A stretch of DNA of 64,000 bases from Rhodoferax saidenbachensis (GTDB lineage Bacteria > Pseudomonadota > Gammaproteobacteria > Burkholderiales > Burkholderiaceae_C), in the NCBI RefSeq assembly GCF_001955715.1, contig NZ_CP019239.1:2728001-2792000 (forward strand). The letters run 5' to 3'. The position numbers and the translations under genes are program-made. Below, one piece after another: positions 49,996 through 58,347 of this stretch (its first letter is position 1; each line of letters begins with the position of its first letter). The notes under the pieces are model-generated. The model worked only from the letters and a program-made list of their open reading frames with translations, was not told the origin of the DNA and made no database searches.

Positions 49996-50058
49996 TTATG
50001 ACGAAATAGGCCTCTAGCCCTTATGGAATGTGCGCAAGCAGCTATTGATTTAATAGCA
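49996..50058 (+). repeat. Dispersed short repeat, near-consensus copy after livM
   Basis: Reads TTATGACGAAATAGGCCTCT, then AGCCCTTATGGAATGTGCGC, then AAGCAGCTATTGATTTAATAGCA. This copy, with those at 54018 and 58137, defines the consensus used to recognise the copies within genes. The 3' part can form a small hairpin (TGCTATTAAAT/ATTTAATAGCA type). Confidence 0.8.
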
Positions 50059-54017: not shown

Positions 54018-54081
54018 TTATGCATGAAATAGGCCCCTAGCCCTTATGAAATATGCGCAAGCAGCTTCTATTTTGATAGCA
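54018..54081 (+). repeat. Dispersed short repeat, near-consensus copy
   Basis: Reads TTATGCATGAAATAGGCCCC, then TAGCCCTTATGAAATATGCG, then CAAGCAGCTTCTATTTTGATAGCA. It lies between the divergently transcribed small-protein/decarboxylase operon and the Rrf2 gene. Confidence 0.8.
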
Positions 54082-55525: not shown

Positions 55526-55944
55526 GAACAGCTGTATTTCACAATTGGTCATTGCATCGACTACGGAGCACTGACACTTAGAAACCAAATAGTCGCTAGC
55601 CTCTGAGAAATAACCTCTGCGCGAGCAGGCTTCTATTTCTACAACAAATTGATTGCAAAGATCTTCGAGATGTACGTTGTAGCGGTGGCTTCGAGTTAGG
55701 TGCTGACTGTCGTTTCAAGCACATGAAAGCTGCCATTGCTATAGTGCAATTATTAGAGTGGTCGAGGCAACCAGTTCGATTAATTAGTTAACTGCAATGC
55801 ATGCGAGCGTTAACGGAAATTTTTAAAAGTGCGAATAAGCAAACCAATTTCGAGAGAAATGGATGCCAAGGTTGATCCTCCGTCGCCAAATTAAAGTACA
55901 GGATTTGCGGCACAAATTACGTTACGCGCCTTTGGGGAGATTTC
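55526..55944. other. AT-rich intergenic region before the SIR2 gene, with one degenerate dispersed repeat
   Basis: Base composition changes from GC-rich to AT-rich shortly after the flavoprotein stop. At 55581-55644 there is a decayed copy of the dispersed repeat (GCTAGCCTCTGAGAAAT, TGCGCGAGCAG, TTCTATTTCTA). The rest has no convincing gene. AT-rich stretches near 55770-55850 could hold the promoter of the SIR2 gene. GGGGAG six bases before 55945 is its ribosome site. Confidence 0.5.
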
Positions 55945-57435
55945 ATGGACTTTCTACAATTAGAAGAAAAATTATCAAGCTATGGCACCGGCGGCTATTA
56001 CTTGGTTGAATCCTTCTTGATAAAGCTTCTGCAAGCCGAAGCACAAGCCAAAAAACAAGATTTTGTTCACAGCTCAGGTAGCAACATTGCAACGTTTGAC
56101 GCTTTCGCCCCCAATGGATTCGGAGACATTCATGGCCCAGTTTCCATTGAAATTGTTAGGGCTTTAAGTACGAACAGAGTCATCAAAGAAGCTAATAGAT
56201 TCTCAAGTGCAACCAAAGAAGCAAGCACATCATTGCTCCTGATTTCACTAACAAAATATAGTCACAATTTAGTTCCGTTTATTAAGAAAAATTTTCCGGC
56301 TGCTGCAAGCGTTTATCTATGGGGCCCGAGCGAAATTCAATCCTTAATCGACCGACATCCGACGACGGCATCAAACTTAGCTGAAAACTTGTTTTCGAAT
56401 CGCTTTCGAGTTGCACTCGAAAGTAATGCAGAAGATTGGAAAACGCAGAGAGAAGGTGTAATAAATGCCGTTCGAGATCAATATAAGTCCGGTCGCTTTT
56501 CCATGTTCCTCGGCGCTGGTGTGTCGAGCAGTGCAGGACTGCCCGACTGGGACACGCTTCTGAATTCTTTATTTGTTTCAATGCTCACAGAGGACGTCGC
56601 AGGCACAAAGAACACTGATTCCGAACAGATATCAAGCATTGTCAAGCGGCTTAGACAAATCGACGGCCCATCTGCCTTAATGCTGGCAAGATACATACGC
56701 AAAGGCATCACCACAGACTCACCAACGGAGCAGGGCAAATTCATTGCCGCAGTGACGACCCAACTCTACGGCCTCCGTAATAAAAAATATTCAATCAGCT
56801 CTCAATTAATAAAAGCAATCGCAAACCTGTGCGCACCAAGTCGTACAGGGGCAAAAATGCGAGCCGTATTGACATACAACTTTGACGATTTGCTTGAACG
56901 CGAAGTAAAAAGTCGAGGTCTGTCTTATCGGAGCATATTTGAAGAATTAGATCTACCTTCTCCCGAAGAGTTGCCGATTTATCATGTTCACGGCTTCCTT
57001 CCGGAAGACCGATCAGAGTATGAAAACATCAATAAGGCGACACTCGTTTTTTCAGAGGAAGGCTACCACCAGATATACAGAGAGTCCTATCACTGGTCTA
57101 ACCTAATTCAATTAAACAGCCTCAAAGAAACATCTTGCCTGATGGTTGGTCTTTCGTTAACTGATCCAAATCTACGCAGGCTACTTGAGATATCGGCCAA
57201 ATCAATAGATAAGCCGAAGCACTTCGCATTTATGAAGCGAATAACATATGAGAGCTTTTCAATGGATGGAGAAAAGTCTGTCGTACGTGCACCAACTACA
57301 ACAGTTCGGCGTTTTCTAGATAGACATCACAAACTTAACGAAGAGGTCTTAAGAGAGTTGGGAGTAAATATTATTTGGTATGAAAACTATGACGAAATCC
57401 CAACTATTCTTCAGCAAATCGGGAAAGGTGTCTAA
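55945..57435 (+). CDS. SIR2-domain protein with degenerate nuclease-like N-terminus (probable defence gene)
   Basis: A 496-residue protein. The central domain is SIR2-like (SIR2_2 type): GAGVSSSAGLPDW (Gly190-Trp201) for NAD binding, TYNFDDLLE (Asn312, Asp314), the HVHGF His349 and VGLSLTDPNLRRLL near 395-408. The N-terminal region (about 1-160) resembles a restriction-endonuclease-like fold, with Asp52 (TFDAFAPNG) and Glu69 (VSIEIV) in place, but Val71 where the catalytic Lys is expected. Bacterial SIR2 proteins of this kind deplete NAD+ on phage infection. The AT-rich composition, unlike both flanks, indicates horizontal transfer. No partner gene (TIR, HerA, Argonaute) lies next to it. Confidence 0.82.
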   Translation: MDFLQLEEKLSSYGTGGYYLVESFLIKLLQAEAQAKKQDFVHSSGSNIATFDAFAPNGFGDIHGPVSIEIVRALSTNRVIKEANRFSSATKEASTSLLLISLTKYSHNLVPFIKKNFPAAASVYLWGPSEIQSLIDRHPTTASNLAENLFSNRFRVALESNAEDWKTQREGVINAVRDQYKSGRFSMFLGAGVSSSAGLPDWDTLLNSLFVSMLTEDVAGTKNTDSEQISSIVKRLRQIDGPSALMLARYIRKGITTDSPTEQGKFIAAVTTQLYGLRNKKYSISSQLIKAIANLCAPSRTGAKMRAVLTYNFDDLLEREVKSRGLSYRSIFEELDLPSPEELPIYHVHGFLPEDRSEYENINKATLVFSEEGYHQIYRESYHWSNLIQLNSLKETSCLMVGLSLTDPNLRRLLEISAKSIDKPKHFAFMKRITYESFSMDGEKSVVRAPTTTVRRFLDRHHKLNEEVLRELGVNIIWYENYDEIPTILQQIGKGV

Positions 57436-57830
57436 CTAACTACTCCATGCCGGTGCGAGCAATGGCAATGTCCAGTGGCACCTAACACGCTTCGTACTCC
57501 GGCGCCAGTTGACACAGCGCCATCGACTTACCGGTAGCACGCGATGCGTTCGCGGTCAAAGATAGTGATGTTGTCGACTGGCCTGTAATGAGACTTATAG
57601 AAAAAAGTTTCCAACGCCCGTAGGGAGGGCTTAATAAACCTCGCTCTTATAGCGAACGCCAATCAGTAAATCAGCAACTTTGGTGCAGCGGAAGTGACAA
57701 CAACCGCTAATCGCATAGCCTCTCCATCACAGCTCCGCCAACAGATTCACCCATCACTTCGGCACCCACCAAAGCATTTCCAAGATTCGCCCCCCAGACT
57801 TCTCTCATCACCACAAGAGAAGTCCCCACG
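57436..57830. other. Intergenic region downstream of the SIR2 gene
   Basis: About 395 bp of mixed composition with no protein I can support on either strand. It returns gradually to high GC. No tRNA, direct repeat of an island end or recognisable transposase remnant is visible, so the boundaries of the acquired segment are uncertain. Confidence 0.5.
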
Positions 57831-58112
57831 GCGATCACCTGCTTCATCCGCTACGAAATCGACCCGTTCCAGAAAGACCAGTTCACCGCCTACGCCAACA
57901 ACTGGGCCCGCATCATTCCGCGCCTGGGTGGACATTTGCTGGGCTACTTTGTGCCGCACGAAGACAGCAACTACGAGGCGTTGCGGACTCATCTCTTTCT
58001 CCAGCCTGGCGGAGTAAAGGGCCTACTGCCAGCGGGCAGTGCGCATGCTGAGCAAACGCCACTAGGACGCAAACACCTGGCGGGCCTGCGGCCTTCGGTC
58101 AACGCGCAGTAG
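57831..58112 (+). pseudogene. Decayed NIPSNAP family gene
   Basis: From 57834 the frame reads [20 protein letters not shown] and then [24 protein letters not shown] sequence (here [20 protein letters not shown]), a clear NIPSNAP-family N-terminus. There is no ATG at the expected place (GCG instead). Around 57980 the frame shifts: the continuation [10 protein letters not shown] is found in another frame and soon meets a stop. The remaining sequence to 58112 is degenerate. Intact members are about 100 residues; this is a broken remnant. Confidence 0.75.
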
Positions 58113-58136
58113 CCTCAGCAGGCGTTTCGCTGGGAT

Positions 58137-58200
58137 TTATGAGCCAAATTGGCCTCTAGCCCCCGTGGAATATGCGCAAGCAGCTTCTGTTTTGATAGCA
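58137..58200 (+). repeat. Dispersed short repeat, near-consensus copy upstream of the mrp operon
   Basis: Reads TTATGAGCCAAATTGGCCTC, then TAGCCCCCGTGGAATATGCG, then CAAGCAGCTTCTGTTTTGATAGCA. It lies between the NIPSNAP remnant and mrpA. The 147 bp from here to the mrpA start show no gene. Confidence 0.8.
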
Positions 58201-58347
58201 AAACAAGCCTCCCCCACGATCCACACCCACCCATTGGCAAGGCGGCCCCACAGTTTGCGTGTGACGCTGGCGGTGGCGATGGGCCGCCGTTTTCTGTGCC
58301 CATAGTGTTGTCGGTAACAATAGAAGTTACCCAACCAACCGACCTGC

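Follow-up and report, generated by a model that had tools for sequence, protein, structure and literature searches.

Introduction

SIR2 defence NADases are known in combination with TIR/SLOG, HerA, Argonaute or STAND modules, or with long sensor parts. In Avs4 an N-terminal nuclease domain is joined to a STAND ATPase and sensor repeats. Lamassu LmuA carries one or the other effector domain (nuclease or SIR2) and needs LmuB. Here we describe a protein in which a nuclease fold is the sole other domain beside SIR2. It belongs to a large, multi-phylum family that is unnamed by the models we searched. On balance, it is likely to be a single-gene abortive-infection NADase that is controlled by its nuclease-fold domain or acts together with it.

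Results

One protein with a nuclease fold and a SIR2 domain

The window (the whole 64,000-nucleotide stretch of Rhodoferax saidenbachensis DNA that was analysed) contains the following features of the gene:

55945..57435, + strand: whole gene, nuclease-fold domain and SIR2 domain (496 aa, ATG to TAA)
55945..56424, + strand: nuclease-fold domain, residues 1-160 (AlphaFold2 pLDDT 89.4; fold search)
56437..57432, + strand: SIR2 domain, residues 165-496
56512..56538, + strand: GAGVSSSAG, residues 190-198, NAD-binding loop
56878..56880, + strand: Asn312, SIR2 catalytic Asn (166/166 sequences; aligns with KomC N107, counted by hand)
56989..56991, + strand: His349, SIR2 catalytic His (165/166 sequences; aligns with KomC H146, counted by hand)

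The initial annotation had reported a complete SIR2 core, and all three of its motifs, GAGVSSSAG, TYNFDD (residues 310-315) and HVHG (residues 347-350), are present in the 496-aa open reading frame. Pfam matched SIR2_2 (PF13289) to residues 307-433 (E = 2.8e-18) and found nothing besides it in the whole protein. A SIR2 Rossmann fold with the NAD-binding GAG loop was found in residues 165-496, and the nearest solved structures were those of the defence NADases ThsA, KomC and DSR2. KomC H146 is the residue changed in PDB 9xvc. By analogy with these families, the SIR2 domain would hydrolyse NAD+, leading to cell arrest. Residue counts here and below refer to an alignment of 166 sequences, made up of 49 diverse loci (12 of 61 had no usable protein of at least 410 aa and were left out) and 117 close homologues (3 of 120 were shorter than 440 aa and were left out).

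PADLOC models gave partial matches to the SIR2 part only, the best being ThsA (2.8e-20), with LmuA also matching (2e-10). NCBIfam returned DSR matches only, at 22.3 (Dsr1) and 15.2 bits, below the cut-off of 1400. A nuclease fold plus SIR2 was covered by no PADLOC or NCBIfam model.

Structure prediction and a fold search, proposed in the initial annotation for residues 1-165, placed a restriction-endonuclease fold at the N-terminus (residues 1-160). The fold-search matches included LmuA nucleases and also RPB5, a non-nuclease user of the same fold. Of the PD-(D/E)XK features, the motif II Asp (D52) and the motif III Glu (E69) are present, and the Lys at the usual motif III place is absent (Val71). 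Sequence divergence is much faster in the N-terminal domain than in the SIR2 part.

When the N-terminal domain of a lysine-bearing relative was used as the query, all 95 matches lay ahead of SIR2; 91 of these proteins had a Pfam SIR2_2 match and the other four ended inside the SIR2 part. Joining of this domain to other effectors was seen in none of the 95, in a search restricted to proteins between 0.55 and 1.75 times as long as the query, short single-domain and very long proteins falling outside this range. At two Bacteroidales loci, L055 (6407-7762) and L061 (5732-7354), the N-terminal domain and SIR2 are encoded by separate adjacent ORFs, with gaps of 27 and 33 bases, and the N-terminal domain has its D and ExK intact. 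Both ORFs of a locus share one reading frame, interrupted by stop codons, and the simple reading is a split gene pair. As the two loci are divergent (36% and 44% identity to each other), a single sequencing error is unlikely, and the domain pair thus stays together without fusion. At a further locus, L045 (726-3793), the N-terminal-domain ORF is separated from the SIR2 ORF by one that looks, by eye, transposase-like, as if the gene had been split by an insertion.

The motif III lysine and the basic residue at position 78

The residues of the nuclease-like site are:

56008..56010, + strand: Glu22, motif I acid, first helix (155/166 sequences)
56098..56100, + strand: Asp52, motif II (159/166)
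56149..56151, + strand: Glu69, motif III acid (156/166)
56155..56157, + strand: Val71, place of the motif III lysine
56176..56178, + strand: Arg78, at the start of the following helix (first turn, motif IV region), candidate lysine replacement

Asp52, Glu69 and Val71 are in the ORF exactly as the initial annotation had them. It had also called the nuclease inactivated. Valine does stand in place of the catalytic lysine, but the call of inactivation needs revising: the lysine is kept in 33 of the 49 diverse loci, and the window's clade, which lost it, strongly conserves Glu22, Asp52 and Glu69 and has a basic residue at 78. Judged from the alignment, a site that is altered, rather than plainly dead, would fit better.

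Lys71 was found in 37 of the 166 aligned sequences, namely the 33 diverse loci just mentioned and four of the 117 close homologues. These four (P0018, P0083, P0094, P0116) sit inside a mostly Lys-less group, so the lysine was kept or regained within it. Among the 16 diverse loci without Lys71, eight group with the window's relatives and eight lie outside, three of the latter having Arg. A tree of 91 representatives, built on the SIR2 part, placed the window gene in a 54-row clade (SH-aLRT 99) that mostly lacks Lys71. Outside this clade most rows keep the lysine, with further losses or changes to Arg elsewhere, and at least eight changes of state were counted on the tree.

These data bear on what the domain does. 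The protein could hold two effectors, a nuclease that cuts DNA and a SIR2 domain that removes NAD+, with an unseen trigger and with the basic residue at 78 replacing Lys71 in the clade of the window gene; we regard this as possible, if tentative. It would suit the canonical D...ExK of the 33 diverse loci and the strong constraint on the acids in the Lys-less relatives of the window gene (121 sequences, effective number 47.7), where Asp52 ranked 7th, Glu22 11th and Glu69 14th of 160 columns. In the same relatives position 71 is variable (rank 76 of 160) and Lys or Arg occupies position 78 in 81%. Over the whole alignment, 111 of the 129 sequences that lack Lys71 have Lys or Arg at 78, whereas 3 of the 37 Lys71-bearing ones do. 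There is a precedent in the available part of PMC1913061, where the motif III lysine of DUF506, DUF790 and DUF1626 has migrated to the following helix, often as Arg. However, the association between positions 71 and 78 is not independent, because it is essentially that of one clade, and an independent-pairs test yielded six independent pairs on supported branches and was not significant. Basic residues at positions 9, 103, 137 and 153 were likewise commoner in the Lys-less set. Moreover, 31 of the 37 Lys71-bearing sequences have some Lys or Arg within 76-82, so that the alignment register may matter. Migration of the lysine to position 78 is suggestive only.

The initial annotation had proposed that the nuclease-like domain binds phage DNA without cutting it and switches on the NADase. 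Loss of the lysine, with position 71 free to vary, in a clade as large and well supported as that of the window gene is consistent with this design. A pure binding domain, however, need not keep E22, D52 and E69, and the motif is complete in most of the distant relatives. This makes the design doubtful in our view.

We think it unlikely that the nuclease fold serves for docking onto a phage protein, with no role for nucleic acid. The analogy here would be DSR2, whose sensor part binds the tail tube protein. The fast divergence of the N-terminal domain and the presence of RPB5 in the fold search would agree with docking, but the active-site acids are conserved where a docking surface could drift.

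Spread and base composition of the family

At least 1371 homologues were found at E ≤ 1e-3 among 7997 candidates scored. The family proteins are of about 500 aa and are spread over many phyla. The 61 loci that we collected from species genomes belong to Pseudomonadota, Bacteroidota, Bacillota, Actinomycetota, Acidobacteriota, Armatimonadetes, a Methanotrichaceae archaeon and others. Within the window's genus the gene is patchy, being present in 2 of 100 sampled genomes, its own genome included. No family match was found in 50,697 phage records. Matches were found in 4 of 72,556 plasmid records, one of them full-length.

The gene lies in a stretch of distinct composition:

55530..57750, no strand: AT-rich stretch with the gene inside (44.3% GC)

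Its GC content is 43.1%, against 65.4% in the flanking stretches, and its third-position GC is 41%, against 76-83% in four neighbouring genes read in frame. The sharp contrast with both flanks noted in the initial annotation was thus reproduced. The recent transfer read from it was not upheld. Of the 52 loci whose flanks were long enough to compare, 39 have a gene whose GC content falls 5 points or more below that of the flanks, and at none is it 5 points above. AT-richness therefore marks the family and not a recent arrival. Repeats flanking the gene, whether direct or inverted, were at chance-like levels, with no insertion signature. No tRNA gene was found in the window, Rfam gave no match, and promoter and terminator counts were no higher than in shuffled sequences.

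Two other elements were noticed nearby. To the right of the AT-rich stretch, positions 57753-58034 hold a remnant of a NIPSNAP-family gene; an intact copy is present in a congener (locus L093, Pfam NIPSNAP 5.6e-21) and the window's own genome has one more stretch that resembles it. A dispersed repeat of about 60 bases occurs at 58135-58201 and also near 49996-50058 and 54018-54081 of the window, and at many places in its genome and in congeners.

Genomic surroundings

Pfam assigned names to eight neighbours within about 6 kb of the gene (SnoaL-like, alpha/beta hydrolase, PhyH, pyridoxal decarboxylase, Rrf2, pyridine nucleotide oxidoreductase and two Mrp-antiporter subunits). The gene lies among metabolic genes, and the window locus is not a defence island. 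The initial annotation had seen no adjacent TIR, HerA, Argonaute or STAND partner, and our scan of the larger ORFs found none among these eight.

In other contigs, the same flank or both flanks of the gene could be followed in two congeners. In one (G009, L096:2139-5422) the flank leads to an OLD/AriA-like ATPase gene with a DUF2130 gene directly behind it, which may form a two-gene defence system. In the other (G030) an FMN oxidoreductase and an HxlR regulator lie between the two flanks. The contents of the site thus vary, and in one of these two congeners the cargo is defence-like.

We compared 714 ORFs of at least 90 aa, within 8 kb of the 61 loci, all against all. No recurrent partner gene emerged; the widest clusters reached only 4 of 61 loci, several contigs being short enough to hide a partner. 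Judged by eye, the two widest shared clusters (four loci each) encode an integrase and an ABC-type ATPase.

To compare defence content, ORFs from a simple longest-ORF picker were scanned with PADLOC. Within 5 kb of the gene at 27 loci, 145 ORFs gave matches to 192 families at the E ≤ 1e-15 threshold and to 36 at E ≤ 1e-60; for an equal number of control ORFs on the same contigs the figures were 16 and 4. These family counts overstate the contrast, because the models are redundant and one protein can match many related ones. Control stretches were hand-picked without knowledge of their content and lay no closer than about 30 kb to the gene. ORFs of more than 900 aa were left out (7 of 152 test, 6 of 228 control), and 145 of the 222 remaining controls were sampled. 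Among 25 of the 36 rows matched at E ≤ 1e-60 were PDC-S06, HamA, HamB, HerA, a cyclase, PDC-S02, DUF4297, GajA, a 2TM effector and SduA. The control regions also contained defence genes (BrxC, MkoA, ShosA and others). Ten chosen neighbour proteins were scanned singly; four matched no defence model and six gave strong matches, namely a DUF4297 protein, SIR2 and HerA proteins beside L017, a CBASS cyclase, the OLD/AriA-like ATPase and, more weakly, a protein matching PDC-M01B. Beside L006 and L017, HerA is paired with a partner of its own, DUF4297 or SIR2. Just upstream of the family member at another locus (L129:352-4760) are a 363-aa protein and an ATPase-like protein, by eye a Lamassu-like pair, to which PHROGs gave no name.

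Ten loci are on viral contigs, two of which (L127 and L128) are P2-like. There, genes for head scaffold, terminase and portal precede the family gene, the portal gene being immediately upstream. The site between gpA and gpQ is described as a defence hotspot of P2-like phages in the available part of PMC9122126, and the gene at L127 and L128 occupies this P2-prophage defence hotspot.

The initial annotation had held that homologues consistently found outside defence islands, with a metabolic role, would speak against its reading. We found metabolic surroundings at the window locus and, elsewhere, more defence genes than in the control regions. An ADP-ribosyltransferase, deacylase or housekeeping enzyme with no defence function is very improbable: some conflict-system sirtuins are described as ADP-ribosyltransferases (PMC9503650, available part) and the window neighbours are metabolic, but the gene is patchy in its genus and has defence-rich neighbourhoods and prophage hotspots elsewhere.

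Discussion

The explanation that we favour, a single-gene abortive-infection NADase, builds on the folds, catalytic residues, family, neighbourhoods and patchiness observed above. We read the protein as defensive because the nearest relatives of its SIR2 domain are defence NADases, the catalytic Asn and His are invariant or nearly so, the surroundings of the family are defence-rich and two members occupy the P2 hotspot. Against a single-gene defence system stand the metabolic setting of the window locus, the presence of some defence genes in the control regions too, and the scarcity of the family in phage (none) and plasmid (four) records.

Infection would be sensed through the nuclease-fold domain (residues 1-160), a role we assign to it because the protein has no other domain. 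This domain would control SIR2, most likely through nucleic acid held in the conserved acidic, metal-binding pocket, and perhaps also cuts nucleic acid. Once switched on, the SIR2 domain (residues 165-496) would hydrolyse NAD+, and NAD+ depletion would stop the infected cell. In the window clade the lysine is gone and basic residue 78 may stand in for it, most of the distant members being canonical (D...ExK). We are guessing on two points: that the trigger is nucleic acid, and that metal binding or cutting by the domain persists.

A bolder version can be offered only tentatively. It pictures a one-protein immune machine in which reading or cutting of invading nucleic acid by the PD-(D/E)XK nuclease would release the SIR2 NADase; the Proteobacterial clade would have been rewired, with its lysine in the next helix, and some Bacteroidales would make the machine as two proteins.

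Comparison with known systems

In literature searches confined to PMC, neither a description of a single nuclease-SIR2 protein nor an experiment on any family member was found, and the available parts of PMC1913061, PMC9519451, PMC9503650, PMC10952713, PMC11514479 and PMC9122126 do not describe one. The DUF506, DUF790 and DUF1626 families resemble the present one, by description only, in that the motif III lysine is replaced and a basic residue lies in the next helix, but a SIR2 partner is not mentioned for them in the available part of PMC1913061.

Among the SIR2 systems, Thoeris ThsA combines SIR2 with SLOG and has an adjacent TIR gene. Our protein has no SLOG, there is no TIR among the eight named neighbours and, unlike in ThsA, SIR2 forms the C-terminal end of the protein. 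SIR2-HerA (Nezha) has an adjacent HerA, and short Argonaute SPARSA has APAZ and Argonaute; the former was not found among the eight named window neighbours, and the latter gave no Pfam match in the protein or in these neighbours. KomC, a SIR2 NADase of the KomBC/HamABC type, is SIR2 only, has 264 residues and works with the partner KomB, whereas here a nuclease-fold domain is fused. In DSR1 and DSR2 SIR2 comes first in a protein of more than 1200 residues; here it comes last in 496 aa and scores below the NCBIfam cut-off. Avs5 joins SIR2 to a STAND ATPase and sensor repeats, and the present protein is without a STAND domain. In contrast to Avs4, the nuclease-fold domain is joined here to SIR2.

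Lamassu is alike on both sides of the protein, the PADLOC LmuA model matching the SIR2 part and LmuA nucleases appearing in the fold list of the N-terminal domain. It differs in that both domains are in one protein here, with no SMC-like (LmuB) gene among the eight named neighbours. With natural members that have or lack the catalytic lysine, and with fused and split forms, this family makes it testable in one small protein whether a nuclease fold serves as sensor, effector or both.
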